In this document: piece by piece, positions 37,395-59,719 of the stretch
Position numbering within the stretch: the stretch's first letter is position 1
Layout of the letters: the number at the start of each line of letters is the position of its first letter
NCBI RefSeq assembly: GCF_001277175.1
Contig: NZ_CP012257.1
Span: 1,860,001-1,924,000, forward strand
Source of the DNA: Cronobacter universalis NCTC 9529
GTDB taxonomy: Bacteria > Pseudomonadota > Gammaproteobacteria > Enterobacterales > Enterobacteriaceae
DNA length: 64,000 nucleotides
Direction of reading: 5' to 3'
Position numbers and translations under genes: made by a program
Notes under the pieces: model-generated
Databases searched by the model: none
What the model saw: the letters and a program-made list of their open reading frames with translations, nothing else
What the model was told of the DNA's origin: nothing

Positions 37395-37486
37395 TGGCTC
37401 ATCCAGAATGCGTTCGCAAAATGCAGAAACGTAAATCAATATTGTAGGCACAGCCTGTTTATCAGGTTCTTGCGCAAAAACAGGGT

Positions 37487-39615: not shown

Positions 39616-39893
39616 CAGCGGTTCTCCTCGCCATACAGCAGCGCGCCGACATCCGGCTCCACCTCAAACATCGTTTGCAGCGCCTCCAGCGTCTCGCGCG
39701 CCTCGCGCTCGTTAATCAGACTCATGGCGAAACCGACATGCACTAGTACCCACTGGCCGAGGCGCGGCTGGCCGTTCTCGTCATGCGTGCCCACCAGCGT
39801 TAAGTCAACCTCGCGCCGCACGCCGCACACCTCGACGCGGGCGAGATTGCCGGCGAGCAGTTCACAGATTTGCCCCGGAATGCCTATGCACAT
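39615..39893 (-). CDS. hypC: Hydrogenase maturation chaperone HypC
   Basis: This 92-residue chaperone begins [13 protein letters not shown]; Cys2 binds the Fe(CN)2CO unit and the HycE precursor. The start at 39893 is fixed by that motif; the open frame continues upstream inside hypB. It overlaps the 3' end of hypB by 10 bases. Confidence 0.96.
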
Positions 39894-40756
39894 CGCTGTT
39901 CCTCCAGCCAGGCGAGCCACGCGCTCATGCCGTCGCCGCGCGTGGCGGAGACCAGCAGGATAGTGATGTTCGGGTTGACCTCGCGCGCGTACGCCATGCA
40001 TTGCTCGACGTCGAAGTTCAGGTACGGCAGCAGGTCGATTTTATTGAGCAACATGAGAGAGGCGGCGGCGAACATATGCGGGTACTTGAGCGGCTTATCT
40101 TCGCCCTCGGTTACCGAGAGCACCGCCACTTTGTGGCGCTCGCCGAGATCAAACCCCGCCGGGCAGACCAGGTTGCCGACGTTTTCAATAAACAGCACGC
40201 CGTTATCGGCAAGCGGCAGCCGCGCCATCGCGTCCTCGACCATCTGCGCGTCGAGATGACACCCTTTGCCGGTATTGACCTGAATCGCCGGCGTACCGGT
40301 GGCGCGAATGCGCTCGGCGTCGTTCACCGTCTGCTGATCGCCTTCGATAACGGCGCAGGGCGTGGCGTCGCGCAGGCGTTTGAGGGTCTCGGTGAGCAGC
40401 GTCGTTTTGCCGGAGCCGGGGCTGGAGACCAGGTTCAGCGCCAGCTGGCCGCGCGCGGCGAGCCGCTGGCGGTTGCGCTGCGCAATCTGGTTGTTTTTAT
40501 CGAGCACGTTAATTTCAATCTCCACCATTTTGCGCTGGCTTAAGCCGGGCGCATGGGTGCCCGCCTCGCCGTGGCCGTAATCGAGAGCGCCATCTGGCGC
40601 TACGTCAGGCGAGAACGCGTTCAGGCTTATCGTGGAGATGGGCGCCGCGGCGCGCGGCGCGGCGGCAAAGGGGGCGGCGCGAAACGGCGAATGCGGGTTG
40701 CGCTCATCGCCTTCTATATACAGGTTGCCGTGCTGGCAACCGCAGGTCGTACACAT
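39884..40756 (-). CDS. hypB: Hydrogenase nickel incorporation GTPase HypB
   Basis: This 290-residue GTPase inserts nickel into hydrogenase precursors with HypA. The N-terminal high-affinity nickel motif CTTCGC (residues 2-7) is intact. A long Ala/Pro-rich linker (about 25-75) precedes the G domain with P-loop SSPGSGKTT and metal site near CHLDA. It lies three bases downstream of hypA. Confidence 0.96.
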
Positions 40757-40759
40757 CTT

Positions 40760-41110
40760 CTACTCCTGTTCTATTTCCAGACGCTTGATTTGCACGCTGT
40801 CATCGGCATCGATGCGCAGATCCGCGCTGTGGCAATGCGGGCAGCGGCGTACCAGCGTCGTCAGTAACTGAACGTTGCGCTGGCACTGCGGGCACCAGCA
40901 CTGCGCCTCCTGCTGGCTTAAATGCAGCGCGCAGCCTTCGGCGCGGGTGTCGCGGCACGCCAGATCAAAGCAAAACTCCAGCGCGCTGCGCTCAACACAG
41001 GAGAACGCGCCGATTTCCAGCCACACGCCGGTGATCTTGCGCGCGCCAAGCTGCTGCGCCTGCTGTTCAATAATTTCCACTGCCCGCTGGCAGAGGGTGA
41101 GTTCGTGCAT
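40760..41110 (-). CDS. hypA: Hydrogenase nickel chaperone HypA
   Basis: This 116-residue protein begins MHELTLCQRAVEIIE, with nickel ligands at the first residues including His2, and has a zinc site in two CxxC motifs (CWCPQC, RRCPHC). The ATG at 41110 is chosen by this N-terminus over an upstream in-frame start. It is first in hypABCDE-fhlA and is served by a sigma-54 promoter on the minus strand at 41153-41168. Confidence 0.96.
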   Translation of the reverse strand: MHELTLCQRAVEIIEQQAQQLGARKITGVWLEIGAFSCVERSALEFCFDLACRDTRAEGCALHLSQQEAQCWCPQCQRNVQLLTTLVRRCPHCHSADLRIDADDSVQIKRLEIEQE

Positions 41111-41152
41111 AACGCCTCCGGTACGTTTCGCGTTTGCGAATGCCATACGTTA

Positions 41153-41342: not shown

Positions 41343-41807
41343 ATGATCCTGTCCGAACTTAGCCAGAAGGCGGAATTTATCGCCGACCGTCACCGCGCGT
41401 TACAGACGCACTGGCACACCTACTGCAATACGCTGGTCCAGGCCATTACGCTGTCGCGCCAGAAGCTGCATCACTCGCTCGGCTGCGAGCCGCAAAACGG
41501 GTTGTGCTTCTTTCTCTTTGAGCATTTCGCCATCCGCGTGGAGCAGGCCGAAGGCTTTCACTGCCGCACCATTAACTACCTGATAGCCCGCCGCGACGGC
41601 AGCGAAGAGACGCTGCTCGCCACCGCGCAGCTCGACGCAAAAGGCATGCTGGACGGCGCGGTCGATATCCGCGACCGCGAGCGGGTGCTGGCGCACTACC
41701 TCGACAAAATCGGCGCGCTGGTCGACGGGCTCTATGACGCCGTCCAGCAAGACGCGCCGCTGCGCATCAGCGAGATCCTGGCGGCCCGCGACGCGTCGTC
41801 ACATTAA
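41343..41807 (+). CDS. hycA: Formate hydrogenlyase regulatory protein HycA
   Basis: This 154-residue protein counteracts FhlA-dependent activation in E. coli and is the first gene of the hyc operon. It is similar to E. coli HycA throughout (SQKAEFIADRHRALQTHWHTYCNTLVQAITLS; ITREVL region replaced by VDIRDRERVLAHYLDKIGALVD). No known fold motif is visible. A further FhlA-like site follows before hycB. Confidence 0.93.
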   Translation: MILSELSQKAEFIADRHRALQTHWHTYCNTLVQAITLSRQKLHHSLGCEPQNGLCFFLFEHFAIRVEQAEGFHCRTINYLIARRDGSEETLLATAQLDAKGMLDGAVDIRDRERVLAHYLDKIGALVDGLYDAVQQDAPLRISEILAARDASSH

Positions 41808-41827
41808 CCGGGCGAGGTGTCGCCGAC

Positions 41828-41869
41828 TGTCGAAATCGTCCGTCGTCGTCACTTTTCGTCAAAAATGTC
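41828..41869. promoter_or_regulatory. Candidate FhlA binding region before hycB
   Basis: It contains TGTCGAAATCGTC (as upstream of hycA) and CGTCACTTTTCGTCA (as upstream of the Sec-type fdhF). FhlA binding between hycA and hycB is established in E. coli. Confidence 0.5.
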
Positions 41870-41889
41870 CATCACCTGAGGAACACCTG

Positions 41890-42495
41890 GTGAACCGTTT
41901 TATCATTGCCGACTCCACGCTTTGCATCGGCTGCCACACCTGCGAGGCCGCCTGTTCAGAGACGCACCGCCTGCATGGACTGCAATCCAGGCCGCGCCTG
42001 ACGGTTATGCGTAACCAAAAAGATTCCGCCCCGCAGCTGTGCCACCACTGCGAAGACGCGCCGTGCGCGCAGGTCTGTCCGGCGAACGCCATCACCCGCG
42101 AGGCGGGGGCGATTCAGCTCAATGAAAGCCTGTGCGTGAGCTGCAAACTCTGCGGCATCGCCTGTCCGTTCGGCGCGATTGAATTCTCCGGCAGCCGCCC
42201 GCTGCATATCCCGGCCAACGTCAACAGCCCGAAAGCGCCCCCCGCGCCGCCTGCGCCTGCGCGCGTCGGCGCGTTTCTCGACTGGACGCCGGGCGTGCGC
42301 GCCGTGGCGGTGAAGTGCGATCTCTGCCAGTTCGACGCGGACGGCCCGGCCTGCATACGCACCTGCCCGACCGGGGCGCTGAAGCTTGTCGATAACCACG
42401 ACATCGCCCGCGCCAGCCGCCGTAAACGCGAGCTGACCATTAACGCCGATCTCGGCGACTTATCGCTGCTGCTGCAACCGCGCGGAGGAGAATAA
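41890..42495 (+). CDS. hycB: Formate hydrogenlyase Fe-S subunit HycB
   Basis: This 201-residue ferredoxin-like subunit with four 4Fe-4S clusters takes electrons from formate dehydrogenase H. Cysteine motifs: CIGCHTCEAAC, CHHCEDAPCAQVCP, CVSCKLCGIACP and CDLCQFDADGPACIRTCP. The start is GTG at 41890, after GAGGAAC, and gives the family N-terminus VNRFIIADSTLCIGC; there is no ATG at the right position. It overlaps hycC by one base (TAATG). Confidence 0.95.
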   Translation: MNRFIIADSTLCIGCHTCEAACSETHRLHGLQSRPRLTVMRNQKDSAPQLCHHCEDAPCAQVCPANAITREAGAIQLNESLCVSCKLCGIACPFGAIEFSGSRPLHIPANVNSPKAPPAPPAPARVGAFLDWTPGVRAVAVKCDLCQFDADGPACIRTCPTGALKLVDNHDIARASRRKRELTINADLGDLSLLLQPRGGE

Positions 42496-44321
42496 TGAAC
42501 GCGATTTTCTTATATCAGGGCGCGCTGGCGGCCTTTGGCGCCGGGCTCGCGCTCGCGCTGCTGAGCGCCTGGCATAAGCCGCTCAGCGCGCTGTTTGCCG
42601 GTCTCGGCGGCGCGCTCGGTTGCCTGTGCGCGCTGGCGACCGGCGGCTGGCTGCTGCTCAACGTGAACGACGGGCCGCTTACGACGCATATCGGCGCGCT
42701 TGCGGCGCATCTCACCGCCTTTAACGCCATCTGGCTGGCGACACTCGGCCTGTCGGGCTTCTTTATCTGCCTGTTTACGCTTATCCATTCGCGCGACGGC
42801 CAGGCGCGCGCCAGCGGGGCGCTTATCAACCTGCTGCTTGGCGCCGCGACGCTCGCGGTGACCGCGCAGAGCCTCGCCGCGCTGGTGGTCATGGCGGAAA
42901 TCATGGCGCTCGCCGCCGTGTTCCTGACCGGAGACAGCGCGGGCGGCAAGCTCTGGTTTGCGCTGGGGCGTCTCGGCACGTTGCTGCTGGCGCTCGCCTG
43001 CTGGCTGCTGTGGCGGCAGTACGGCACGCTGGACGTGCTGGCGTTAAGTTCGCTCACCGCCGGGCAACCGTTTAGCGCGGTCACCTGGCTCTCGGGGCTG
43101 GCAGGCTTCGGGCTGCTCGCAGGCGTGATTCCGCTGCACGGCGGCGTGGTGCAGGGCCATGCGCAGGCCGCCGCGCCCGCCGCCGCGCTCTTCTCCGCCG
43201 TGGTGCTGAAAGTGGGGCTCTACGGCATCCTGGTCTTTTCGCTGATGAACGCCGCGCTGCCGCTCTGGTGCGGCGTGCTGGTGCTGCTGCTCGGCATGGT
43301 GACCGCGTTTATCGGCGGGCTTTACGCGCTGCTTGAGCACAACATCCACCGGCTGCTGGCGTACCACACGCTTGAGAACATCGGCATTATCCTGCTGGGG
43401 CTCGGCGCGGGGCTTGCGGGGATTTCGCTTGGCGAGCCTGCGCTGGTGGCGCTCGGCCTGGTGGGCGGGCTCTATCACCTCTTCAACCACAGCCTGTTTA
43501 AAACCACGCTGTTCCTCGGCGCGGGCGCGGTCTTTCACCGCACCGGCCTGCGCGATATCGAAAAGCTCGGCGGTATCGGCAAAACCATGCCGCTTATTTC
43601 GATCTCCATGCTGGTGGGCCTGATGGCGATGGCCGCGCTGCCGCCGCTGAACGGCTTCGCGGGCGAGTGGGTGATTTATCAGGCGTTCTTTGACCTGGGC
43701 GCGCAGCCGCTGTTTATCGCCCGTCTGCTCGGGCCGCTGCTGGCGGTGGGGCTGGCGATTACCGGCGCGCTGGCGGTGATGTGTATGGCGAAGGTCTACG
43801 GCGTGACGTTCCTCGGCGCGCCGCGCACGCAGGCGGCCGCGCAGGCGACCGATGCGCCCTGGCTCATGCGCCTTTGTGTGATGGGGCTGGCGCTGTGCTG
43901 CGTGGCGGGCGGCGTCGCCGCGCCGTGGCTGTTGCCGCTGCTGGGCCGCGCCGTCCCGCTGCCGATCGTCACCGCCGGCACCACCGTCTCTCAGCCGGTG
44001 ATCACGCTGCTGCTGGCAGGCTCGCTGCTGCTGCCGTTCCTGCTGGCGACGCTCTTCAAAGGCGATCGCCTGCCGTCGCGCACGCGCGGCAGTGCCTGGG
44101 TGTGCGGCTACGATCACGAACCGGAGATGGTCATTACCGCGCATGGTTTCGCCCGGCCCGTTAAGGCCGCCTTCGCGCCGCTGATTCAGCTGCGCCATAT
44201 CCTTAATCCGGCGCGCCTGCTGCCGGGCTGGCAGAGCGCCAGCCTGCCGCTGCTGTGCCGTCGTCTGGCGGCGGTCGAACTGGCCGTGCTGCTGGTCGTC
44301 GTGATTTCACGGGGAGTGTGA
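42495..44321 (+). CDS. hycC: Formate hydrogenlyase membrane subunit HycC
   Basis: This 608-residue integral membrane protein has about 16 predicted segments and is related to the NuoL/ND5 and Mrp antiporter subunits of complex I. It anchors FHL and may move ions. The central antiporter-like block (GVIPLHGGVVQGHAQAAAPAAALFSAVVLKVG) and LLAYHTLENIGIILLGLG are visible. Length equals E. coli HycC. Confidence 0.96.
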   Translation: MNAIFLYQGALAAFGAGLALALLSAWHKPLSALFAGLGGALGCLCALATGGWLLLNVNDGPLTTHIGALAAHLTAFNAIWLATLGLSGFFICLFTLIHSRDGQARASGALINLLLGAATLAVTAQSLAALVVMAEIMALAAVFLTGDSAGGKLWFALGRLGTLLLALACWLLWRQYGTLDVLALSSLTAGQPFSAVTWLSGLAGFGLLAGVIPLHGGVVQGHAQAAAPAAALFSAVVLKVGLYGILVFSLMNAALPLWCGVLVLLLGMVTAFIGGLYALLEHNIHRLLAYHTLENIGIILLGLGAGLAGISLGEPALVALGLVGGLYHLFNHSLFKTTLFLGAGAVFHRTGLRDIEKLGGIGKTMPLISISMLVGLMAMAALPPLNGFAGEWVIYQAFFDLGAQPLFIARLLGPLLAVGLAITGALAVMCMAKVYGVTFLGAPRTQAAAQATDAPWLMRLCVMGLALCCVAGGVAAPWLLPLLGRAVPLPIVTAGTTVSQPVITLLLAGSLLLPFLLATLFKGDRLPSRTRGSAWVCGYDHEPEMVITAHGFARPVKAAFAPLIQLRHILNPARLLPGWQSASLPLLCRRLAAVELAVLLVVVISRGV

Positions 44322-44322
44322 G

Positions 44323-45249
44323 ATGCAAAACCTGATTTTCCCTCTTTTACAGGCGCTGGCGCTCTTTGCCTGCTCGCCGCTGCTCGCGGGCGTCACCCGC
44401 GTGGCGCGCGCGCGTCTGCATAATCGTCGCGGGCCCGGCGTGCTTCAGGAGTATCGCGATCTGCTGAAATTGCTGGGCCGCCAGAGCGTCGCGCCCGCGG
44501 CGTCCGGCTGGGTGTTCCGGTTTACGCCGTACGCCATGCTGGCGGTGATGTTCACCATCGCCGCCGCGCTGCCGGTCGTGACCGTTCGCTCGCCGCTGCC
44601 GGGCGCGGGCGATCTCATCACGCTGATTTATCTCTTCGCCATCGCGCGCTTCTTTTTCGCCATTGCCGGGCTGGATACCGGCAGCCCGTTCACCGGGATC
44701 GGCGCAAGCCGCGAGGCGATGCTGGGCGTGCTGGTGGAGCCGATTCTGCTGCTCGGCCTGTGGGTCGCGGCGACGGTGGCGGGGTCAACGCACATCAGCC
44801 AGATCGCCGCGCGCGTCTGTGACTGGCCCGTCGCGCACAGCCTGACGCTGGCGCTGGCGCTCGCCGCCTGCGCCTTCGCCACGTTTATTGAAATGGGCAA
44901 GCTGCCGTTCGATCTCGCCGAAGCGGAGCAGGAGTTACAGGAAGGCCCGCTGTCGGAGTACAGCGGCGCGGGCTTCGCGCTGCTGAAATGGGGCATAAGC
45001 CTCAAACAGCTGGTGGTGTTGCAGATGTTCGTCGGCGTATTTGTGCCCTGGGGCCAGATGCTGACCTTCAGCCTGAGCGGCATGGCGATAGCCCTGGCGC
45101 TGGCCGTCGTCAAACTGCTGGCAGGCGTGCTTATCATCGCGCTCTTTGAAAACAGCATGGCGCGTTTGCGTTTTAACGCCGTTTCGCGCGTCACCTGGAC
45201 CGGTTTCGGCCTGGCCTTTTTAGCTTTCGTCTCCTTGCTGGCGGCGTGA
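44323..45249 (+). CDS. hycD: Formate hydrogenlyase membrane subunit HycD
   Basis: This 308-residue, about eight-segment protein is related to NuoH and connects the soluble arm with the membrane part. The conserved loop EMGKLPFDLAEAEQELQEGPLSEYSG is intact. It begins one base after the hycC stop. Confidence 0.96.
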   Translation: MQNLIFPLLQALALFACSPLLAGVTRVARARLHNRRGPGVLQEYRDLLKLLGRQSVAPAASGWVFRFTPYAMLAVMFTIAAALPVVTVRSPLPGAGDLITLIYLFAIARFFFAIAGLDTGSPFTGIGASREAMLGVLVEPILLLGLWVAATVAGSTHISQIAARVCDWPVAHSLTLALALAACAFATFIEMGKLPFDLAEAEQELQEGPLSEYSGAGFALLKWGISLKQLVVLQMFVGVFVPWGQMLTFSLSGMAIALALAVVKLLAGVLIIALFENSMARLRFNAVSRVTWTGFGLAFLAFVSLLAA

Positions 45250-45264
45250 TTAGAGAACTGAACA

Positions 45265-46974
45265 ATGTCTGAAGAAAAAACAGGGCAACACTATCTGCGC
45301 GCGCTGCATGAGGCGTTTCCCGGCGTGGTGCTTGATGAAGCCTGGCAAACCAAAGACCAGCTGACGGTCACGGTGAAAATCAATTATCTGCCGGAAGTGG
45401 TGGAGTTTCTTTACTACCAGCAGGGCGGCTGGCTCTCGGTGCTGTTCGGCAATGACGAGCGTAAGCTCTGCGGCAGCTACGCGGTCTACTACGTGCTCTC
45501 GATGGAGCAGGGCGTGAAGTGCTGGATAACGGTGCGCGTCGAGGTGGACGCGAATAAACCGGAGTTTCCGTCCGTAACGCCGCGCGTGCCCGCCGCCGTC
45601 TGGGGCGAGCGTGAAGTGCGCGATATGTATGGTCTGGTCCCGGTCGGCCTGCCGGATGAGCGCCGCCTGGTGCTGCCGGATGACTGGCCGGACGACCTCT
45701 ATCCGCTGCGCAAAGACAGCATGGATTACCGCCAGCGCCCGGCGCCGACCAGCGATAAAGAGACCTATGAGTTCATCAACGAACTGGGCGATGCCAAAAA
45801 TAACGTGGTGCCCATCGGCCCGCTGCATGTCACCTCCGACGAGCCGGGCCACTTCCGGCTGTTCGTGGATGGCGAAAACATCATCGACGCCGACTACCGG
45901 CTCTTTTACGTCCACCGCGGCATGGAAAAACTCGCCGAAACCCGCATGGGCTACAACGAAGTGACGTTTCTCTCCGACCGCGTCTGCGGCATCTGCGGAT
46001 TCGCCCACAGTACGGCCTACACCACCTCGGTGGAAAACGCGATGGGCATTCAGGTGCCGGAACGCGCGCAGGCGATCCGCGCGATTTTGCTGGAAGTCGA
46101 GCGGCTGCACAGCCACCTGCTGAACCTCGGCCTGGCGTGTCACTTTGTCGGCTTCGACTCCGGCTTTATGCAGTTTTTCCGCGTGCGTGAAACGTCCATG
46201 AAGATGGCGGAGATCCTGACCGGCGCGCGTAAAACCTATGGCATGAACCTGATTGGCGGCATTCGCCGCGATCTGCTGAAAGACGACATGACGCAGACCC
46301 GCCAGCTGGCCCAGCAGATGCGCCGTGAGGTGCAGGATCTGGTGAGCATTCTGCTCAGCACGCCGAATATCGAACAGCGCACGGCGGGCATTGGCCGTCT
46401 CGACCCGCAGATCGCCCGCGATTTCAGTAACGTCGGGCCGATGGTGCGCGCGAGCGGCCACGCCCGCGACACCCGCGCCGATCACCCGTTTGTGGGTTAC
46501 GGCCTGCTGCCGATGGAAGTGCACAGCGAACAGGGTTGCGACGTTATCTCTCGCCTGAAAGTGCGCATCAACGAGGTGTTCACCGCGCTCAATATGATTG
46601 ACTTCGGGCTGGATAACCTGCCCGGCGGGCCGCTGCTGGTGGAAGGGTTTACCTATATTCCGAACCGCTTCGCGCTTGGGTTTTCCGAAGCGCCGCGCGG
46701 CGATGACATTCACTGGAGCATGACCGGCGACAACCAGAAGCTTTACCGCTGGCGCTGCCGCGCGGCGACTTACGCCAACTGGCCGACTCTGCGCTACATG
46801 CTGCGCGGCAATACGGTGTCTGACGCGCCGCTGATTATCGGCAGTCTCGACCCATGCTACTCCTGCACCGACCGTATGACGGTGGTGGACGTGCGCAAGA
46901 AGAAAAGCCAGGTGGTGCCGTACAAAGAGCTGGAGCGCTACAGCATTGAGCGCAAGAACTCGCCGCTGAAATAG
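45265..46974 (+). CDS. hycE: Hydrogenase 3 large subunit HycE
   Basis: This 569-residue precursor has an N-terminal NuoC-like domain (about 1-170) and a NuoD/[NiFe] large-subunit domain. NiFe ligands: Cys241 and Cys244 in RVCGICGF, Cys531 and Cys534 in DPCYSCTDR, the same positions as E. coli HycE. The C-terminal tail after the arginine of CTDR is removed by HycI after nickel insertion. The next gene, hycF, is separated by 176 bases filled with REP-like units, unusual inside this operon. Confidence 0.97.
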   Translation: MSEEKTGQHYLRALHEAFPGVVLDEAWQTKDQLTVTVKINYLPEVVEFLYYQQGGWLSVLFGNDERKLCGSYAVYYVLSMEQGVKCWITVRVEVDANKPEFPSVTPRVPAAVWGEREVRDMYGLVPVGLPDERRLVLPDDWPDDLYPLRKDSMDYRQRPAPTSDKETYEFINELGDAKNNVVPIGPLHVTSDEPGHFRLFVDGENIIDADYRLFYVHRGMEKLAETRMGYNEVTFLSDRVCGICGFAHSTAYTTSVENAMGIQVPERAQAIRAILLEVERLHSHLLNLGLACHFVGFDSGFMQFFRVRETSMKMAEILTGARKTYGMNLIGGIRRDLLKDDMTQTRQLAQQMRREVQDLVSILLSTPNIEQRTAGIGRLDPQIARDFSNVGPMVRASGHARDTRADHPFVGYGLLPMEVHSEQGCDVISRLKVRINEVFTALNMIDFGLDNLPGGPLLVEGFTYIPNRFALGFSEAPRGDDIHWSMTGDNQKLYRWRCRAATYANWPTLRYMLRGNTVSDAPLIIGSLDPCYSCTDRMTVVDVRKKKSQVVPYKELERYSIERKNSPLK

Positions 46975-46983
46975 GCGGCCACG

Positions 46984-47116
46984 GTGGGTGCGCTGCGCTT
47001 ACCCACCCTACGGGGGATGGCTCGCCTGTTAATCCTGGCGTGTAAGCGGTAGCGCACCCGCCGGGTAAAACCGCCGCAAAGTGACCGTAGGGCGGGTAAG
47101 CGGCAGCGCACCCGCC
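46984..47116. repeat. REP-like units inside the hyc operon (hycE-hycF gap)
   Basis: Three units: 46984-47011 (inverted), 47040-47062 (partial) and 47087-47116, separated by short variable sequence. They share the GGGTAAGCG..AGCGCACCC.CC core with the clusters at 26.4, 34.5 and 49.3 kb. Confidence 0.88.
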
Positions 47117-47150
47117 AGGTAAAACCGTCGCGCAGGCGACAGGAGACAAC

Positions 47151-47693
47151 ATGTTTACCTTTATCAAAAAAGCCTTAAAAACCGGCGTGGCGACGCAGCC
47201 TTATCCGCTGCAACCGATGCCGGTCGATAAAAATTTTCGCGGCAAGCCGCAGCACAATCCGCAGCAGTGTATCGGCTGCGCGGCCTGCATCAACGCCTGC
47301 CCGTCCAATGCCTTAACGGTCGAAACCGACCTTCAGCACGACCGCCTCGACTGGCAGTTCAATCTCGGCCGCTGCATCTTCTGCGGCCGCTGCGAAGAGG
47401 TCTGCCCGACGGCCGCCATTCGCCTGACGGCCGAATATGAGCTGGCGGTCTGGCGCAAAGAGGATTTTCTCCAGCAGGCGAGCTTCGCGCTCTGCCGCTG
47501 CCGCGTCTGCCAGCAGCCGTTCGCGGTGCAAAAAGAGGTGGATTACGCGATAGCGCTGCTCGCGCACAACGGCGATGAGCGCGCCGAGCGCCATCGCGCG
47601 AGCTTTGAAACCTGTCCTGACTGCAAACGCCAGCAGGGCCTTGCGCCCTCGGAGCTTATCGATCTGACCCGCGAAATGAAGGAGGCGGTGTGA
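47151..47693 (+). CDS. hycF: Formate hydrogenlyase Fe-S subunit HycF
   Basis: This 180-residue NuoI-like ferredoxin carries two 4Fe-4S clusters: [12 protein letters not shown] (about residues 41-52) and [12 protein letters not shown]. Its C-terminal half has extra cysteine pairs (CRCRVC, CPDC). CAGGAGAC precedes the ATG, so it has its own ribosome site despite the repeat cluster upstream. The stop overlaps the hycG start. Confidence 0.96.
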
Positions 47694-48457
47694 TGAACCT
47701 GCTCGGCCCACGCGATGACAACAACATTCCGGTGCCCGTGACGGTGGAAGAATCCATCGCGCGCATGAAAACCTCGCTACTGAAAAACATCAAGCGCTCG
47801 GCGTATGTTTACCGCGTCGACTGCGGCGGCTGCAACGGCTGCGAAATCGAAATTTTCGCCATGCTCTCGCCGCTCTTTGACGCCGAGCGCTTCGGCATCA
47901 AAGTCGTGCCGTCGCCGCGTCACGCCGATATTCTGCTGTTTACCGGCGCGGTGACCCGCGCCATGCGCTCGCCCGCGCTGCGCGCCTGGGAATCGGCGCC
48001 CGATCCGAAAATCTGTATCTCTTACGGCGCGTGCGGCAACAGCGGCGGCATTTTCCACGATCTCTACTGCGTCTGGGGCGGCACCGACAAAATCGTCCCG
48101 GTAGATGTTTATATCCCCGGCTGCCCGCCGACGCCCGCCGCGACGCTCTACGGCTTTGCGATGGCGCTCGGCCTGCTGGAGCAGAAAATCCATGCCCGCG
48201 CGCCTGGCGACGAGGACAATCAGGCCGCCGCCATTCTGCACCCGGAGATGGTGCAGCCGCTGCGCGTGCGTGTCGATCGCGCCGCGCGCCGCCTGGCGGG
48301 GTATCGCTACGGGCGCCAGATTGCCGACGACTATCTGCGCCACCTGACGGCAGGCGAGCAGAGCGTGGCGGGGTGGCTGTCGCAGGAGAACGATCCGCGG
48401 CTTAGCGAAATCGTCGCGCAGCTTGAGGCGGTGGTGGCGCAGGAGCGCATCGGATGA
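47693..48457 (+). CDS. hycG: Hydrogenase 3 small subunit HycG
   Basis: This 254-residue NuoB-like small subunit holds one 4Fe-4S cluster proximal to the NiFe site, with [12 protein letters not shown] and later [12 protein letters not shown] and [16 protein letters not shown] at 47693 overlaps the hycF stop; a GTG one codon upstream is possible. A 4-base overlap links it to hycH. Confidence 0.96.
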
Positions 48458-48861
48458 GCGAAACCGTGGTGTTCAGCCGCCTGTCGCGCAAGTTCGTCGA
48501 TGAAAACGATGACACCCCGCCGCAGGCGCAGCAGGTTATCTACTACAGCCTGGCGATAGGCCATCATCTGGGCGTGATCGACTGCCTCAAGGCGTCGCTG
48601 GTCTGCCCGTTTGAGGCATACGAGGCGTGGATCGCCACCCTCGCGCCCGGCGAGGCGCAGCGCAAAATGCAGGGCGTGCCGCGCTACGGAGAGATTGTTA
48701 TCGACCAGAACCATGTCTCGCGGCTGGCGCGGGCGTTTGACGAGGCGCTGCCGCGCCAGAACGCGCAGCAGCAGGCGTGGAGCCGCGAGCTTTTAGGGCT
48801 GCTTCAGGCCATCCAGCGGGAGCCGGCGGTGTATGTGATGGTAAGGAGGGATCGTGACTGA
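48454..48861 (+). CDS. hycH: Formate hydrogenlyase maturation protein HycH
   Basis: This 135-residue cytoplasmic protein is needed for processing of HycE in E. coli, and its mechanism is not well defined. It is similar to E. coli HycH in length and sequence ([34 protein letters not shown]). It overlaps both neighbours. Confidence 0.93.
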
Positions 48862-49327
48862 CGTTTTATTGTGTGTCGGAAACAGCATGATGGGCGACGA
48901 CGGCGCGGGGCCGCTGCTCGCCGAGAAATTCCGCGCCGCGCCGCAGGGCGAATGGGTGCTGGTGGACGGCGGCAGCGCGCCGGAAAACGATATTGGCGCC
49001 ATCCGCGAGTTGCGCCCCGAGCGGTTGTTGCTGGTGGATGCCACCGAGATGGGGCTCGACTCTGGCGAGATCCGAATTATCGATCCGGATGATATTTCAG
49101 AGATGTTTATGATGACGACCCATAACATGCCGCTGAATTATCTGGTGGATCAATTGCGCGAGGATGTGGGTGAGGTGATTTTTCTCGGCATCCAGCCCGA
49201 CATTGTGGGGTTTTATTACCCGATGACCGACCCGGTGAAACGCGCGGTCGACACCGTGTATGACCGTCTGGCGCAATGGACCGGCAAAGGTGGGTTTGCG
49301 GCGCTGGCAGTGGAGGAAGGCGTGTAG
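48854..49327 (+). CDS. hycI: HycE C-terminal processing protease HycI
   Basis: This 157-residue nickel-dependent endopeptidase of the HybD/HupD family removes the C-terminal tail of HycE. Metal ligands are expected at Asp in GNSMMGDDGAGP, Asp in LVDATEMGLD and His in MMTTHNMPL. It is the last gene of hycABCDEFGHI. Confidence 0.96.
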   Translation: MTDVLLCVGNSMMGDDGAGPLLAEKFRAAPQGEWVLVDGGSAPENDIGAIRELRPERLLLVDATEMGLDSGEIRIIDPDDISEMFMMTTHNMPLNYLVDQLREDVGEVIFLGIQPDIVGFYYPMTDPVKRAVDTVYDRLAQWTGKGGFAALAVEEGV

Positions 49328-49338
49328 CCAGGCGGGAT

Positions 49339-49705
49339 GGCGGGTGCGCCGCGCTTACCCGCCCTACCAATTATGGTTCGCACGTAGGGTGGGTAAGCGA
49401 AGCGCACCCACCGTTTTTCCGCCCCGAGTGTTAATTAGTTGGTAAGGTGGATGGTTTTGCTCCGGCTAAAGAAAATCGGCCCCTGAGGGCCGATTTCCGC
49501 CGGGAGCCGGGATTGCAAAGGGGGCGGCGGCGAGCCCCCTTTGCACGTTCGCGTGAGGGAAGCGCTCATATAAAGATGACATTGTGGCGAACGGAACGAA
49601 TTCACCAACCTGATATATCAAAAACTGGATGGCGGGTGCGCATTCGCTTACCCGCCCTACGTTGAGAATGTTTTTTGTAGGGTGGGTAAGCATCGCGCAC
49701 CCACC
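49339..49705. repeat. Composite repeat copy D (inverted) with four REP-like units, after hycI
   Basis: REP-like units lie at about 49339-49366, 49384-49412, 49631-49660 and 49677-49705. The core element is on the minus strand at about 49457-49599, with its perfect 12-bp stem hairpin at 49514-49545 and the AATCGGCCC / GGGCCGATT hairpin at 49478-49499. It reads in the opposite sense to copies A, B and C. The 49328-49874 gap holds no other supportable feature. Confidence 0.87.
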
Positions 49706-50171: not shown

Positions 50172-50192
50172 TCGTCATAAATGTCGATGACA
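50172..50192. promoter_or_regulatory. Candidate FhlA site upstream of hydN
   Basis: It contains CGTCATAAATGTCGATGACA, with ATGTCG/CGTCA half-site elements shared with the hycB and fdhF upstream regions. It lies about 60 bases above the sigma-54-like element. Confidence 0.45.
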
Positions 50193-50248: not shown

Positions 50249-50264
50249 TGGCATGGATCGTGTA
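50249..50264 (+). promoter_or_regulatory. Degenerate sigma-54 promoter of the hydN operon
   Basis: TGGCATGGATCGTGTA has GG at 50250-50251 but GT instead of GC at the -12 position (50262-50263) after ten bases. The TGGCATGG block is identical to the hycA promoter. Confidence 0.5.
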
Positions 50265-50300: not shown

Positions 50301-50846
50301 ATGAACCGCTTCATCATTGCTGATTCAAGTAAATGTATAGGATGCCGCACCTGCGAGGTGGCGTGCGTGGTGTCGCACCAGGAAAACCAGGACTGCGCCG
50401 CGCTTACCCCGCAAACCTTTCTGCCGCGCATTCATGTCGTCAAGGGCGTGAATGTCTCTACCGCCACCATGTGCCGCCAGTGTGAAGACGCGCCGTGCGC
50501 CAGCGTCTGCCCGAACGGCGCTATCAGCCGCGACGGCGATTTTGTCCATGTCCATCAACAGCGCTGCATCGGCTGCAAAACCTGCGTCGTGGCGTGCCCT
50601 TACGGCGCGATGGAAGTCGTGGTGCGCCCGGTGGTACGCAACAGCGGCGCGGGCCTTAACGTGCTGGCCGAGAAAGCCGAAGCCAACAAATGCGATCTCT
50701 GCCATCACCGCGCCGAAGGCCCGGCCTGCATCGAGGCGTGCCCGACTAACGCCATCGTCTGCATCGATCGTAACCGCCTGGAAGCGCTCAGCGCCGAACG
50801 CCGCCGCCGCGCCGCGCTCGATGGCCTCTCATCCCTGGCTTTTTAA
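50301..50846 (+). CDS. hydN: Electron-transfer Fe-S protein HydN
   Basis: This 181-residue HycB-like ferredoxin has four 4Fe-4S motifs: CIGCRTCEVAC, CRQCEDAPCASVCP, CIGCKTCVVACP and CDLCHHRAEGPACIEACP. It is thought to support formate dehydrogenase H or its maturation. The start at 50301 gives the family N-terminus MNRFIIADSSKCIGC; the frame is open further upstream. Its location immediately before a formate dehydrogenase gene (34-base gap) makes a dedicated electron-acceptor role for that enzyme plausible. Confidence 0.94.
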   Translation: MNRFIIADSSKCIGCRTCEVACVVSHQENQDCAALTPQTFLPRIHVVKGVNVSTATMCRQCEDAPCASVCPNGAISRDGDFVHVHQQRCIGCKTCVVACPYGAMEVVVRPVVRNSGAGLNVLAEKAEANKCDLCHHRAEGPACIEACPTNAIVCIDRNRLEALSAERRRRAALDGLSSLAF

Positions 50847-50880: not shown

Positions 50881-53031
50881 ATGAAAAAAATCACCAGCGT
50901 CTGTCCGTACTGTGGTGCGGGTTGCAAACTCAAGCTCGTTGTGGACAACAACAAAATCGTTCGCGCCGAGGCCGCCGAAGGCGTCACCAACCAGAACCAG
51001 CTCTGCCTGAAAGGCTATTACGGCTGGGATTTCCTTAACGATACCCAGCTTCTGACGCCGCGCCTCACCCAGCCGATGATCCGCTACCAGAAAGGCGGCG
51101 CGCTTCAGGCGGTCTCCTGGGATGAAGCCATTCGCTACACCGCAGAGCGCCTCTCGGCCATCAAAAAGCAGTACGGCCCGCGCGCCATCATGACCACCGG
51201 CTCTTCGCGCGGCACTGGCAACGAAACCAACTACGTGATGCAGAAATTCGCCCGCGCGGTGCTCAACACCAATAATGTCGACTGCTGCGCGCGCGTCTGT
51301 CACGGTCCGTCGGTGGCGGGGCTGCAGCAGACGCTCGGCAACGGCGCGATGAGTAACTCCATCGGCGATATTGAAAACTCCAAATGTTTGCTGGTGTTTG
51401 GCTATAACTGCGCCGATTCGCACCCGATTGTGGCGCGTCGCGTGCTGAAAGCCAAAGAAAACGGCGCGAAGGTGATTGTCTGCGACCCGCGCAAAATCGA
51501 AACCGCGCGTATCGCCGATCAGCATCTGCAAATCAATAACGGCTGCAACATGGCGCTGGTCAACGCCTTTGGCTACGTGCTGCTCGAAGAAGCGCTCTAT
51601 GACAAAGAGTATGTGGCGCGCTACACCGAAGGGCTGGATGCCTACCGCGAGACGGTAAAAGATTACGCGCCGGAAGCGGTCGAGCATCTCACCGGCGTCA
51701 GCGCGCAGCAGATCCGCCAGGCGATGCGTACGTTCGCCGCCGCGCCGTCCGCCACCATTATGTGGGGCATGGGCGTGACGCAGTTCGGTCAGGCGGTGGA
51801 TGTCGTTAAAGGCCTCTCAAGCCTAGCGCTGCTCACTGGTAATCTCGGGCGCGAGCATGTCGGCGTCGGCCCGGTGCGCGGCCAGAATAACGTGCAGGGC
51901 GCGTGTGACATGGGCGTGCTGCCGAACCAGTTCCCCGGCTATCAGGATGTCGAAGACGCGGCGGTGCGGGAAAAATTCGCGCGCGCCTGGGGCATCGATC
52001 CGGCCGTGATGGACGACAAAATCGGCGTGCGCATCACTGAGGTGCCGCACCTGGCGCTCGAAGGCAAAGTCAAAGCCTACTACATCATGGGCGAAGATCC
52101 GCTCCAGACCGAAGCCGATCTCGGCCTGGTCCGTCAGGGCTTCGACGCGCTCGATTTCGTGGTGGTGCAGGACATCTTTATGACCAAAACCGCCGAAGTG
52201 GCGGACGTTCTGCTGCCCGCCACCTCCTGGGGAGAACATGGCGGCATCTTTACCTGCGCCGACCGCGGCTTCCAGCGCTTCGAGGCGGCGGTGGAACCTA
52301 AATATAACGTCAAACGCGACTGGGAAATCATCAGCCTTATCGCCACCGCGATGGGCTACCCGATGCATTACGACAATAACCAGCAGATCTGGGACGAAAT
52401 GCGCGAGCTCTGCCCGCTCTTTTACGGCGTGACGTACCAGAAAATGGGCGATATGGGACATGTGCAGTGGCCATGCCCGACGCTGGATCACCCCGGCACG
52501 CCGTACCTCTACGCCGGGAATCACTTCGACACGCCGACCGGCAAAGGCCAGCTTTTCGCCGCCCCGTGGCGCGCCCCGGCGGAACAGCCGGACGCCGACT
52601 ACCCGCTGGTGCTCTGTACCGTGCGCGAAGTGGGGCACTACTCCTGCCGCTCGATGACCGGCAACTGCGCGGCGCTGCAAACGCTCGCCGACGAGCCGGG
52701 CCGCGTGCAGATGCACCCACAGGACGCGGAACGCCTCGGCGTGCGGGACGGCCAGCTGGTGTGGGTGAACTCCCGTCGCGGGCGGGTGATCAGCCGCGCC
52801 GATGTCAGCGAGCGCATCAACCCCGGCGCGGTCTACATGACCTACCAGTGGTGGATCGGCGCGTGCAACGAGCTCACCCAGGATAATCTCGACCCGGTCT
52901 CCAAAACGCCGGAAACCAAATATTGTGCGGTGAATGTCGAGGCTATCGCCGATCAGCGCGAGGCCGAAGCCTATGTCCAGACCACCTATACCAGCATGAA
53001 GGCGCGCCTGCGCGACGCCGCCGCGGTATAG
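50881..53031 (+). CDS. fdhF: Formate dehydrogenase H paralogue with cysteine in place of selenocysteine
   Basis: This 716-residue molybdopterin enzyme oxidises formate to CO2. The N-terminal 4Fe-4S ligands are in [10 protein letters not shown] and [11 protein letters not shown]. The residue that is selenocysteine in E. coli FdhF (position 140) is Cys here: codon TGT at 51298-51300 in [14 protein letters not shown], followed by the conserved His141. The SECIS hairpin sequence seen in the second copy is not conserved after this codon. The start at 50881 gives the family N-terminus; the frame runs into hydN upstream but without similarity. Lies in hydN-fdhF-hypF-nickel permease. In E. coli this position in the operon is empty. 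Confidence 0.95.
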
Positions 53032-53075
53032 CTCAGCCTGCGCGGGCCTCGCGCCCGCGCGTTTTCAACGAGACG

Positions 53076-55315
<2,240 letters not shown>

Positions 55316-55322
<7 letters not shown>

Positions 55323-56338
55323 CTCAATTGCGTAATCACCCGCCCCGCGCGCTGGCCCTGGTGGCCGCGCTCGGCCTTGCCAATCTGGCCGCCTGGATCT
55401 GGGCGTTTTATGCCTTTCACGACACTCCCGCGCTGATGGCCGCGAGCCTGCTGGCCTGGGGTTACGGGCTGCGCCACGCGGTGGACGCCGACCATATCGC
55501 CGCCATCGATAACGTCACGCGCAAAATGATGCAGCAGGGTAAACGCCCGTGTGGCGTCGGGGCGTGGTTTTCGCTAGGCCACTCCAGCATCGTGGTGCTG
55601 GCGTCCGTCGCCATTGCCGCGACCGCCGCGGCGGTAAAAGACGAGATGGCCTGGTTTCACGACGTAGGCGGGGTGATTGGCACCACTGTCTCGGCGGCGT
55701 TTCTGCTGGCGATGGCGCTGGTGAATCTCGTTATCCTGCGCGGTATCTGGCGCAGCTTCAGCAGGCTGAAACGCGGCGAGCCGCTGAATGATGGCGCAGA
55801 CGCCCTGACTGCAGGCGGGCCGATGAGCTGGCTGTTTCGCGCGACCTTCCGGCTGGTGAGCAAAAGCTGGCATATGTATCTGGTTGGTTTTCTTTTTGGG
55901 CTCGGCTTTGACACCGCGACTGAGATTGGCGTGCTGGGCATCTCGGCGGCGGGCGCGTCAAACGGCATGTCGGTCTGGTCGATTCTGGTCTTCCCGGCGC
56001 TCTTTACCAGCGGTATGGCGCTTATCGACACGCTCGACAACCTGGTGATGGTGGGCGCGTATGGCTGGGCCTTCAGCAAGCCGCAGCGCAAGCTCTATTA
56101 CAATATGACCATTACCGGCACGTCGGTGGTGGTGGCGCTCTTTATCGGCGGGCTGGAGGCGCTGGGGCTGCTGATGGATAAATTCGGTCTTTCCGGCGGC
56201 CTCTGGGATTGGGTGGCCGGCGTGAACGATAATCTTGGCGACGCCGGGTTTATCGTGGTCGGTCTGTTCATCGCCTGCTGGGCGCTGTCGATTCTGAACT
56301 ACCGCCTGAAAGGCTACGACGCGCTGCCTGCGCGCTGA
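55316..56338 (+). CDS. High-affinity nickel permease, NiCoT (HoxN/NixA) family
   Basis: This 340-residue membrane protein has about eight transmembrane segments and the NiCoT signature [17 protein letters not shown] in segment II. Further conserved blocks are [29 protein letters not shown] and [16 protein letters not shown]. It is expected to import Ni2+ (possibly Co2+) by secondary transport. The ATG at 55316 overlaps the hypF stop, so it is cotranslated with a hydrogenase maturation factor. E. coli uses the NikABCDE ABC system for this instead. Selectivity between Ni and Co cannot be told from the sequence. Confidence 0.93.
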
Positions 56339-56354
56339 GCCGCAACGCGCCTTT

Positions 56355-56376
56355 CGTCACGTCACTTTTGACGACA
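56355..56376. promoter_or_regulatory. Candidate FhlA site upstream of Sec-type fdhF
   Basis: CGTCACTTTTGACG at 56360-56373 is an inverted repeat (CGTCA / TGACG). CGTCACTTTT is identical to the hycB upstream motif. It lies about 60 bases above the sigma-54 promoter. Confidence 0.55.
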
Positions 56377-56435
56377 GGCGCGCCCTCGACACGTATTTTC
56401 CTCTCCAACCCGCATGCGGCGCGCTTTCCGGCAGC

Positions 56436-56450
56436 TGGCACGCTTTCTGC
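56436..56450 (+). promoter_or_regulatory. Sigma-54 promoter of the Sec-type fdhF
   Basis: TGGCACGCTTTCTGC: GG at 56437-56438 and GC at 56449-56450 with ten bases between, 45 bases before the start codon. Confidence 0.9.
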
Positions 56451-56495
56451 ATTATCCGCTCCACTATTTACGCAGTTAACTCTGGAGCATGACCG

Positions 56496-58643
56496 ATGAA
56501 AAAAGTCGTTACGGTTTGCCCCTATTGCGCGTCGGGTTGCAAAATCAACCTGATCGTCGATAACGGCAAGGTCGTTAAGGCGGAAGCGGCAATGGGGAAA
56601 ACCAATCAGGGCGATTTATGCCTGAAGGGCTATTACGGCTGGGATTTTATCAATGATACCCAGATCCTCACTCCGCGCCTGAAAACGCCAATGATTCGCC
56701 GTGAGCGCGGCGGCCGGCTGGAAGCGGTCTCCTGGGAGGAGGCGCTGGACTATGTGGCGCAGCGCCTCGGCGACATTAAAGCCAAATATGGCCCGGACGC
56801 CATCATGACCACCGGCTCCTCGCGCGGCACCGGCAACGAAACCAACTATGTGATGCAAAAATTTGCCCGCGCGGCGATCGGCACCAATAACGTCGATTGC
56901 TGCGCGCGCGTCTGACACGGCCCCTCGGTTGCAGGTCTGCACCAGTCGGTCGGTAACGGCGCCATGAGCAACTCCATCACTGGCATTGAAAATACCGATT
57001 TAGTCTTTGTATTTGGGTACAACCCGGCGGATTCGCATCCGATCGTCGCCAATCGCGTGATCAAAGCGAAGAAAAACGGGGCGAAAATTATCGTCTGCGA
57101 TCCGCGGAAAATCGAAACCGCGCGGATTGCGGATATGCATCTGGCGCTGAAAAACGGCTCCAACATCGCGCTGTTGAACGCGATGGGGCACGTGATTATC
57201 GAAGAAGATCTCTGGGACCACGCCTTTGTATCGGCGCGTACTGAAGGCTTTGAAGAGTATCGCAAAATCGTCGAGAGCTATACGCCGGAGTCGGTGGAAG
57301 CCATCACCGGCGTCAGCGCCAGTGAGATCCGCGAAGCGGCGCGGATGTACGCCCGCGCGGAACGTGCGGCGATCCTCTGGGGCATGGGCGTAACGCAGTT
57401 TTATCAGGGCGTCGAGACGGTGCGTTCACTCACCAGCCTCGCGCTGCTGACGGGTAATCTTGGCAAGCCGAGCGCGGGCGTTAACCCGGTGCGCGGGCAG
57501 AATAACGTACAGGGCGCGTGCGACATGGGCGCGTTGCCGGATACCTATCCGGGCTACCAGTACGTGAAATTCCCGGAACACCGCGAGAAGTTCGCCAAAG
57601 CCTGGGGCGTGGCGTCGCTGCCTGCGCATACCGGCTATCGCATTAGCGAGTTGCCGCACCGCGCGGCGCATGGCGAAGTGCGCGCCGCCTACATCATGGG
57701 CGAAGATCCGCTGCAAACCGATGCTGAACTCTCGGCGGTGCGCCAGGCGTTTGAAACGCTGGAACTGGTGATTGTGCAGGACATCTTCATGACCAAAACC
57801 GCCTCGGCGGCGGACGTGATTTTGCCTTCCACCTCCTGGGGCGAGCATGAAGGGGTCTATACGGCGGCGGACCGCGGCTTCCAGCGCTTCTTTAAAGCGG
57901 TGGAGCCGAAGTGGGATCTGAAAACCGACTGGCAGATAATCAGCGAGATCGCCACCCGGATGGGCTATCCGATGCATTACGACAACACCAAACAGATCTG
58001 GGATGAGCTGCGCGCGCTGTGCCCCGATTTTTATGGCGCCACTTATGAAAAAATGGGTGAGCTCGGCTACATTCAGTGGCCGTGTCGCGATGAATCAGAG
58101 GCCGATCAGGGCACCGATTACCTGTTTGAGAAGGAGTTCTCCACGCCGAACGGGCTCGGGCAGTTCTTCACCTGTGACTGGGCGCCGCCGCTTGACCGGG
58201 TGAACGAGGAGTATCCGCTGGTGCTCTCCACGGTGCGCGAAGTGGGGCACTACTCCTGCCGCTCAATGACCGGCAACTGCGCCGCGCTGGCGGCGCTGGC
58301 GGATGAGCCGGGTTACGCGCAAATCAACAGCGCCGACGCAAAACGCCTCGGCATTGAAGACGAGGCGCTGGTGTGGGTGGTGTCGCGCAAAGGCAAAGTC
58401 ATTACCCGCGCGCAGGTGAGCGACAGGCCGAACAGAGGGGCGGTCTACATGACGTACCAGTGGTGGATCGGCGCCTGTAACGAGCTGGTGGCGGAGAACT
58501 TAAGCCCGATCACGAAAACGCCGGAGTATAAGTACTGCGCCGTGCGGGTTGAGCCGATAGCCGATCAGCGAGCCGCCGAGCAGTATGTGATTGACGAGTA
58601 CAACGCCCTGAAAACCCGGCTGCGGGAGTCCGCGCAGGGTTAA
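56496..58643 (+). CDS. fdhF: Formate dehydrogenase H, selenocysteine-containing
   Basis: One gene read through an in-frame TGA at 56913-56915 (codon 140), giving a 715-residue selenoprotein as in E. coli FdhF. Without recoding it would appear as two open frames (56496-56915 and 56964-58643). The TGA is in the context [13 protein letters not shown], and the downstream sequence matches the E. coli fdhF SECIS. Other motifs: [40 protein letters not shown]. It has its own sigma-54 promoter and terminator, directly after the hydN operon; in E. coli fdhF is unlinked to the hyc locus. It needs selA, selB, selC and selD elsewhere in the genome. Confidence 0.96.
56913..56955 (+). promoter_or_regulatory. 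UGA (Sec) codon and SECIS hairpin
   Basis: The stem-loop after the TGA contains TCGGTTGCAGGTCTGCACC, whose apical part GCAGGTCTGC is identical to the E. coli fdhF SelB-binding hairpin with the bulged U. In the Cys paralogue the same position reads GGCGGGGCTGCAGCAGACG and no longer forms it. Confidence 0.92.
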
Positions 58644-58683: not shown

Positions 58684-59595
58684 TCAGCCTTCCGGCATCC
58701 GCGCGCGGCATTCGGCCAGGACAAACTGGCGCAGCCAGCGGTGCGCCGGATCGGCATCGAGACGTGGGTGCCACATCTGCGACACGGTAATAGGCCGGGT
58801 CGCCACAGGCAATTCAAACCACGTAAGCCCGGTGTCGCCCGGCAGATTAATCAGAAACGAGGCGGGCACCAGCGCCACCAGATCGGTGCCGCGCGCGACG
58901 GCGAGCGCCGCCGGGAACCCCGGCACCACGGCGGCGATATGCCGCGTAACCCCGTGTTGTGCGAGCGCGTCATCGACCGGCCCGGTAAAGACGCCGCGCC
59001 GCGACGCCGCCACATGGCTCCACGCGGTGTAATCTTCAGGCGTCACGTCGCGGCCCGCGAGCGGATGGCCGCTTCTCACCACGCCCACGAAGCGGTCGCG
59101 GAAGAGCCGTTGCTGTTTGATCTCCGGCCCCATTTCACCCGGCACGCCTATTTCCAGATCCGCTTCGCCTTCACGCAGCGGCCGGTCGCTTTTTACCGGC
59201 TTTGGCGCAAAGCGCAGGCGTACGCCGGGCGCGCACCGGGCGGCCGCGGCAATCAGCGCCGGGCCGAACGCCTCCACAAAACCGTCATTGGCGCGCAGGG
59301 TAAAGGTCTGCTGGTGGCTGACGATATCAAACGCCTGCGGCGCGGGGCGCAGCACGGCGCGCGCGGCGAGCACCGCGCCCTGGGTGCGTTCGCGAAGAGA
59401 GTCGGCGTAGGGCGTGAGCACCATCTGGCGGCCGGCGCGTACCAGCAGCGGATCGCCGGTGGCCTCGCGCAGACGGCTCAGCGTGCGGCTCATCGCCGAC
59501 GCGCTTAAGTTCAGGCGACGCGCCGCCGCAGCCACGCTTTTCTCGGCGAGCAGGACATCCAGCGCAAAAAGCAGATTTAAATCCGGGTCATTCAT
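58684..59595 (-). CDS. LysR-family transcriptional regulator
   Basis: This 303-residue regulator has an N-terminal winged helix-turn-helix (about 5-65, LLFALDVLLAEKSVAAAARRLNLSASAMSRTLSRLRE) and a type 2 periplasmic-binding-like effector domain. The start at 59595 (MNDPDLNLLFALD) is preferred to an upstream in-frame Met at 59634. It is transcribed divergently from the MFS exporter gene with 124 bases between, the usual arrangement of a LysR regulator and its target. The effector is unknown. Confidence 0.9.
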   Translation of the reverse strand: MNDPDLNLLFALDVLLAEKSVAAAARRLNLSASAMSRTLSRLREATGDPLLVRAGRQMVLTPYADSLRERTQGAVLAARAVLRPAPQAFDIVSHQQTFTLRANDGFVEAFGPALIAAAARCAPGVRLRFAPKPVKSDRPLREGEADLEIGVPGEMGPEIKQQRLFRDRFVGVVRSGHPLAGRDVTPEDYTAWSHVAASRRGVFTGPVDDALAQHGVTRHIAAVVPGFPAALAVARGTDLVALVPASFLINLPGDTGLTWFELPVATRPITVSQMWHPRLDADPAHRWLRQFVLAECRARMPEG

Positions 59596-59719
59596 CGTCA
59601 GGCTCCGGGCGCATGATGACAGATGGCGTTTCATGCAGGTTTATAGTGCAATCGTTGCGTCTTCCGCTATGTATCGCCGGAAAGTAGAGTGAACGCAAGC
59701 ACACATTTTCGGAGTGACC

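Follow-up and report, generated by a model that had tools for sequence, protein, structure and literature searches.

Escherichia coli, the model organism for formate hydrogenlyase (FHL), has only a selenocysteine (Sec) form of formate dehydrogenase H (FdhF), and its FHL is therefore selenium-dependent. Treponema primitia reportedly carries a Sec and a Cys form of this enzyme in one genome, with transcription said to be controlled by selenium. In Pectobacterium atrosepticum, a Cys-type FdhF was identified by deletion as the main formate dehydrogenase of hydrogen production, and deletion of fdhF lowered hydrogen about 500-fold (PMC7384014). In the same paper, Finney et al. put the share of FHL species relying on a Cys enzyme at more than half and cite a dramatically lower turnover of the Sec-to-Cys E. 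coli enzyme. Here we analyzed a stretch of 64,000 nucleotides from Cronobacter universalis NCTC 9529 (contig NZ_CP012257.1, positions 1,860,001–1,924,000; the whole stretch is called the window), in which a Cys140-type gene, fdhF-A, and a Sec140-type gene, fdhF-B, lie near the hyc operon for hydrogenase-3. The data suggest, with a probability that we put at roughly 60%, that this locus supplies a single FHL with two interchangeable electron-input subunits, FdhF-A serving as the selenium-free backup. No description of such a paired FHL locus was found among the results listed from the open-licence literature searched; the parts are known, and what is apparently new is how often both forms are kept by genomes whose selenium machinery is intact, and that the two genes lie jointly at the hyc locus.

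Both genes encode full-length FdhF proteins, as an initial annotation of this DNA had stated, with TGT at codon 140 of fdhF-A, TGA at codon 140 of fdhF-B, and 3.5 kb between the end of the former (53031) and the start of the latter (56496). Against the NCBIfam model TIGR01591 (cut-off 666 bits), FdhF-A and FdhF-B scored 907 and 1034 bits, respectively, and they are 66% identical to each other. FdhF-B matched an E. coli FdhF at 637 of 714 aligned residues (89.2%); FdhF-A is 67% identical to E. coli FdhF, and its best PDB match is the E. coli-type formate dehydrogenase H. We take the functional residues of FdhF to be the [4Fe-4S] cysteines 8, 11, 15 and 42, Lys44, Sec/Cys140, His141 and Arg333, and this set is kept in both window copies.

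The locus shares features with two described systems. Its Sec copy, the selenocysteine insertion sequence (SECIS) within it, and the hyc and hyp genes resemble FdhF and FHL-1 of E. coli (PDB 1aa6, 1fdo and 7z0t). E. coli differs in the unlinked position of its fdhF, between mdtP and yjcO, and in the lack of a Cys-type companion: 5,369 of 5,426 E. coli genomes matched the Sec gene, and a Cys-type match was found in none of the 5,426 (blastn, E 1e-200). FdhF-A in turn resembles ECA1250, the FdhF of P. atrosepticum FHL-2, which PMC7384014 describes as having Cys140, a gene order fdhF-hypF-hoxN (ECA1250–1252) like that downstream here, and 65% identity to E. coli FdhF (85% elsewhere in the paper), the likeness being drawn from residue, gene order and identity to the E. 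coli protein. The Cys140 FdhF-hypF-nickel permease arrangement of a Pectobacterium-type FHL-2 is thus present, but not its hydrogenase-4 (hyf) partner; P. atrosepticum uses hydrogenase-4 and reportedly has no selenocysteine machinery, in contrast to the hydrogenase-3, selA, selB and second, Sec-type FdhF found here.

The two copies belong to separate lineages. Trees were built with FastTree from 232 sequences and with IQ-TREE under a mixture model from 69, the codon-140 column being removed from both; 232 of 243 genes were kept after identical proteins and L128, L147, L166 and L167 (incomplete or carrying an additional stop) were dropped, and approximately unbiased (AU) tests used 69 of the 232 rows and quick trees. 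In both trees, FdhF-A fell within a clade of 106 sequences (clade A; 102 Cys and 4 Sec), and FdhF-B within a clade of 85 Sec sequences (clade B) together with E. coli FdhF. A constraint uniting the FdhF copies found in the window, in one congener and in Franconibacter cost 556 log-likelihood units (p-AU 1.2e-47). The phylogeny that had been proposed as a check thus rejected fdhF-A as a recent decayed duplicate, a recent duplication being ruled out by the trees and the AU test and decay by the ratios of nonsynonymous to synonymous substitution rates (dN/dS) given below. The AU rejection and the separate clades argue that the pair consists of two old lineages that ended adjacent; as judged from their sequences, fdhF-A and fdhF-B are ancient paralogues whose lineages split before this genus and family. 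The linked Sec copies fall in a 13-member Sec subclade (support 0.99), and Silvania has, in addition to such a copy, another Sec copy next to gltP and yjcO. These E. coli neighbors, gltP or yjcO, were present in the fetched flank of 54 of the 85 clade-B Sec copies.

Conservation of both copies was examined at the active site and across the coding sequence. The four [4Fe-4S] cysteines and Lys44 were invariant in all 102 of the clade-A Cys sequences, and His141 and Arg333 were each kept in 101; the exceptions among these and the 85 clade-B Sec sequences were one H141C and one His333, both in Cys sequences. Median dN/dS over the 21 pairs of the genus was 0.037 for fdhF-A and 0.053 for fdhF-B, compared with 0.026 for hydN, 0.046 for hycG, 0.107 for the permease gene and 0.155 for hypF. 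These ratios indicate that both FdhF copies are being maintained by selection. A Cys-type FdhF of Intestinirhabdus alba (L078, 10001–12145) has Cys-Cys at residues 140–141, that is, His141 replaced by Cys, and two other, clade-B-like copies of this species are cut at contig ends ahead of codon 140.

An in-frame TGA followed by a SECIS, which we used to define a selenoprotein gene, was found in fdhF-B and not in fdhF-A. At the gathering score of the Rfam model SECIS_2, fdhF-B was the sole match, in line with the SECIS first noted there. The lower score of the homologous region in fdhF-A (Table 1) probably reflects shared coding sequence. A functional SECIS relic in fdhF-A was considered and rejected, given this sub-cut-off score and a loop codon, codon 147, that is unconstrained among the 102 Cys copies (GGG in 40, GGT in 38, GGC in 15 and GGA in 9); it was GGT in all Sec copies (85 of 85 in clade B, 4 of 4 of Shewanella type and 12 of 12 basal). 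No Rfam SECIS cut-off was reached by any of the three Shewanella-type Sec copies scanned out of four (L085, L188 and L198), nor by the Sec copy of L221.

To describe distribution, two samples were used. The named set comprised 79 genomes chosen because each carries a gene closely related to fdhF-A (the best 80 of at least 583 loci), so that the frequency of the Cys form in it is uninformative; a fairer sample was an order-wide one of 394 genomes with completeness of at least 90%. In the latter, 61 genomes had a close FdhF, with the Sec type in 48, the Cys type in 31 and both in 18. Carrying both types is thus common in the order, and the view of Sec/Cys pairs as confined to a few bacteria did not hold; close linkage is rarer. 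Zhang et al. (2006) reported that Cys homologues of FdhA are very few in organisms using Sec (PMC1794560); many were found in the larger genome sets used here. In the named set, 54 of the 79 genomes also had a TGA-bearing FdhF, one of them (G117) with a further TAA, and in another genome (G109) there were only fragments at contig ends. Every one of the seven genomes examined within the genus (this one and six others) had the linked pair, about 3.5 kb apart with a full-length Cys copy. A clade-A Cys and a clade-B Sec gene shared one fetched locus in these seven genomes, Franconibacter pulveris, two Silvania species and Hafnia alvei, the last with the Sec gene upstream.

The genome (4.44 Mb, two contigs) contains selA and selB, and a HycE search of it (E 1e-120) found one group-4 hydrogenase, in an operon with hycA, hycC, hycH and hycI. 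Across the named set, selA was found in 66 of 79 genomes, and a Sec FdhF accompanied it in 53 of the 66, versus 1 of the 13 without a selA match; this lone genome is a metagenome-assembled one, from whose assembly selA may be missing. In the order-wide sample, all 55 genomes with a group-4 hydrogenase match had an FdhF match, and all 20 genomes with a clade-A Cys FdhF had a group-4 hydrogenase. Genomic linkage and co-occurrence were thus shown, and FdhF is predicted to assemble with HycB/HycF and hydrogenase-3.

Control motifs were scored by a scheme devised for this analysis, with FhlA and sigma-54 consensus patterns that we assume to be correct, and against shuffles that preserve single-base content only. 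Across the whole window, the sigma-54 pattern with two mismatches gave 28 sites versus 39 expected, which is the chance level, and only a conserved position in orthologues therefore made the motif informative. The pattern TGTCGNNNNTGACA, likewise with two mismatches, gave 62 sites versus 46 expected, scattered through the window without singling out the locus. The TGGCACGCTTTCTGCA site ahead of fdhF-B recurred in each of the seven genus members examined, which favors the suggestion that the Sec copy has its own sigma-54 promoter. Sigma-54-like sites scoring at least 14 preceded 30 of 34 stand-alone Cys copies (those with no adjoining hydN, in Citrobacter, Klebsiella, Enterobacter and others) at a shuffled rate of 0.1%, and FhlA-like palindromes, with a shuffled rate of about 4%, stood before 27 of these 34 copies, before 55 of the 67 hydN units and before 64 of the 85 Sec genes. 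The palindrome between the permease gene and fdhF-B resembles an FhlA upstream activating sequence and is possibly also an mRNA 3′ end; the long hairpin that contains it keeps its pairing between this genus and Silvania though the letters differ, and is not kept in Franconibacter. The simplest view of these motifs is that both units may be members of one FhlA regulon.

Under the proposed scheme, formate and anoxia would activate FhlA, which with sigma-54 would turn on both units. With selenium present, SelB and the SECIS would allow UGA140 of fdhF-B to be read as Sec, and hydrogenase-3 would be fed by the faster Sec enzyme; with selenium absent, UGA140 would end translation of fdhF-B, leaving FdhF-A, produced together with HydN from the hydN-fdhF-A unit, as the one enzyme sustaining the conversion of formate to hydrogen. 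The lower turnover of the Sec-to-Cys E. coli enzyme fits a fast Sec form with a slower Cys reserve. We infer joint expression, assembly of both copies with hydrogenase-3 and the selenium-dependent swap. The idea of a selenium-independent partner for the same hydrogenlyase, already put forward in the initial annotation, gains support from the age and conservation of the Cys lineage, the FhlA- and sigma-54-like motifs, the presence of fhlA, selA and selB, the single group-4 hydrogenase detected and the P. atrosepticum precedent. Of the selenium-dependent regulation suggested with it, a translational dependence of the Sec copy follows from the UGA and SECIS; no transcriptional sign was found in this analysis, and both units look FhlA-regulated. 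The broader proposal, in which two exchangeable subunits in one FhlA regulon use the UGA as a selenium sensor without a regulator, and in which this arrangement is ancient and widespread across Enterobacterales, E. coli being a lineage that lacks the selenium-free half, is more tentative, and we would give it slightly less than even odds.

Several observations weigh against interchangeable subunits of one FHL. Clades A and B differ at 52 positions, residue 140 and one gap among them, where either clade has a consensus of 93% or more, so that partner or kinetics may differ. In the order-wide sample, 6 of the 61 FdhF-bearing genomes had no group-4 hydrogenase match, and a clade-A Cys copy was present in none of the six. 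Among the 67 hydN units just 20 reached the sigma-54 score of 14, and among the 85 Sec genes just 19, and the –12 element of the window's own hydN-unit site is degenerate. Family-wide, dN/dS was 0.104 in clade A versus 0.069 in clade B (30 of 73 and 30 of 68 sequences, using pairs with dS below 1.5, 323 of 435 and 435 of 435, respectively), an order reversed from that in the genus, and the Cys lineage has therefore been freer over longer times. In the named set, 12 of the 66 selA-bearing genomes had no Sec FdhF, and one more was ambiguous; the Cys form can therefore be enough on its own, even in selenium users. E. coli, for its part, does without the Cys copy.

The divergence of the clades and the FdhF genomes that have no group-4 hydrogenase match would also suit a division of labor, in which one FdhF serves hydrogenase-3 and the other mainly another acceptor, through an AegA/YgfT-type route or a ferredoxin-like partner, so that neither backs up the other. 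The same could be said of Citrobacter, Klebsiella and Enterobacter, where the Cys gene stands alone, apart from hydN and hyc, and of the loose attachment of FdhF to FHL and its possible moonlighting mentioned in PMC7384014. We nevertheless regard such a division as unlikely, since stand-alone Cys genes retain FhlA- and sigma-54-like motifs, every clade-A Cys genome of the order-wide sample has a group-4 hydrogenase, and the window's Cys copy is grouped with hydN, hypF and hyc. A transcriptional selenium switch of the kind said to operate in T. primitia, with the Cys gene repressed by selenium, would likewise build on a Sec and a Cys paralogue kept as a pair, but here the pair adjoins the hyc operon, no sign of selenium-controlled transcription was found, and similar FhlA-like motifs stand before both units. 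No selenium-specific transcriptional regulator was found beside the pair, the rest of the genome not having been searched for one; the sole regulator gene adjoining it, of LysR type (58684–59634), scored 21 bits with a selenium-associated LysR model (cut-off 250) and evolves loosely (dN/dS 0.15), and such a switch thus appears quite improbable. That fdhF-A is a decaying, non-functional leftover would accord with the absence of a Cys copy from E. coli, which marks the gene as dispensable in some relatives, but it is hardly credible for a gene with its genus-level dN/dS, its full length in all seven genomes and its conserved catalytic residues. Two exchangeable subunits for one FHL thus remain the reading that we prefer.

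Table 1. Features of the fdhF-A/fdhF-B locus (window coordinates)
Feature	Position	Strand	Remarks
fhlA	35316–37451	-	PRK15429 1379.5 bits, cut-off 830; GTG-start open reading frame (ORF), model match from residue 20
hyp maturation genes	37487–41146	-	hypE, hypD and hypB by model; rest by position only
hyc operon (hydrogenase-3 of FHL-1)	41343–49327	+	hycE 45265–46974
TGTCGATGACA palindrome 5′ of hydN	50182–50192		Upstream of the sigma-54-like site
Sigma-54-like site of hydN-fdhF-A unit, TGGCATGGATCGTGTA	50249–50264	+	GT where –12 GC expected
hydN (electron transport protein HydN)	50301–50846	+	PRK10330 369 bits (cut-off 260); start assigned by eye
fdhF-A, formate dehydrogenase H, Cys140 type	50881–53031	+	TGT 51298–51300
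SECIS-homologous region of fdhF-A	51293–51347	+	50.9 bits, under gathering score 70; loop codon GGG
Terminator-like GC-rich hairpin between fdhF-A and hypF	53039–53065	+	Not listed by terminator scan
hypF (carbamoyltransferase)	53076–55322	+	ATG 53076 chosen inside longer ORF 52923–55322
HoxN/NixA-family nickel/cobalt permease gene	55316–56338	+	TIGR00802 401 bits, cut-off 333
Palindrome/hairpin, permease gene-fdhF-B gap	56346–56383	+	Core TCGTCA-N9-TGACGA, one mismatch in window copy
Sigma-54-like site of fdhF-B, TGGCACGCTTTCTGCA	56436–56451	+	60 bases 5′ of ATG
fdhF-B, formate dehydrogenase H, Sec140 type	56496–58643	+	TGA 56913–56915
SECIS element (Rfam SECIS_2), in fdhF-B	56908–56962	+	80.2 bits, gathering score 70

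Within the hyc operon, curated models identified hycA, hycC, a hycF-type iron-sulfur subunit, hycH and hycI; hycB, hycD, hycE and hycG were assigned from gene order and weaker matches. The hycI-hydN gap contains variants of tagggtgggtaag at 49380–49410 and 49670–49700, perhaps a dispersed intergenic repeat. Spacers of 34 bases between hydN and fdhF-A and 44 bases between fdhF-A and the hypF ATG, together with the overlap of hypF and the permease gene, make the cotranscription of these four genes plausible, though less certain than had been proposed; the terminator-like hairpin between fdhF-A and hypF intervenes, and is a possible attenuator splitting hydN-fdhF-A from hypF and the permease gene. 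Folding of the corresponding gap in the six congeners, in Franconibacter and in two Silvania loci gave hairpins there too, and in some relatives a T-run accompanies the hairpin. On the 3′ side of fdhF-B, the LysR-type gene is followed by an MFS transporter gene.

Other lineages on the trees gave further observations. In Atlantibacter subterranea and Citrobacter freundii M-21 (L089 and L129), a Sec fdhF of the linked subclade lies beside nickel ABC transporter-like genes recognized by eye, a second case of a Sec fdhF adjoining nickel uptake. The Sec FdhF of Shewanella fodinae and the genomes grouping with it (L085, L188, L198 and L199) is nested within the otherwise Cys clade A, and in three Shewanella-type genomes Cys and Sec sister copies lie about 12–18 kb apart. 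Monophyly of all Cys clade-A sequences was rejected on the whole protein (p-AU 6e-5); in split trees, p was 1e-7 for the part away from codon 140 and 0.21 for the part containing it. The Shewanella-type Sec copies represent either a Cys-to-Sec reversal or gene conversion; PMC1794560 reported that no such reversal was seen for FdhA. Cys and Sec FdhF are also intermixed on the tree in L219–L221 (group f9) and L217/L222 (group f27), and L221 has both copies in one genome, about 10 kb apart.

Many relatives of E. coli thus keep a conserved Cys enzyme besides the Sec enzyme despite having selenium machinery. They offer a natural experiment on what Sec buys within one enzyme and one complex, and on why both forms are retained, and a selenium-free formate dehydrogenase for hydrogenase-3 would be useful for engineering. 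For the organism, the pair probably allows hydrogen to be made from formate under selenium scarcity.

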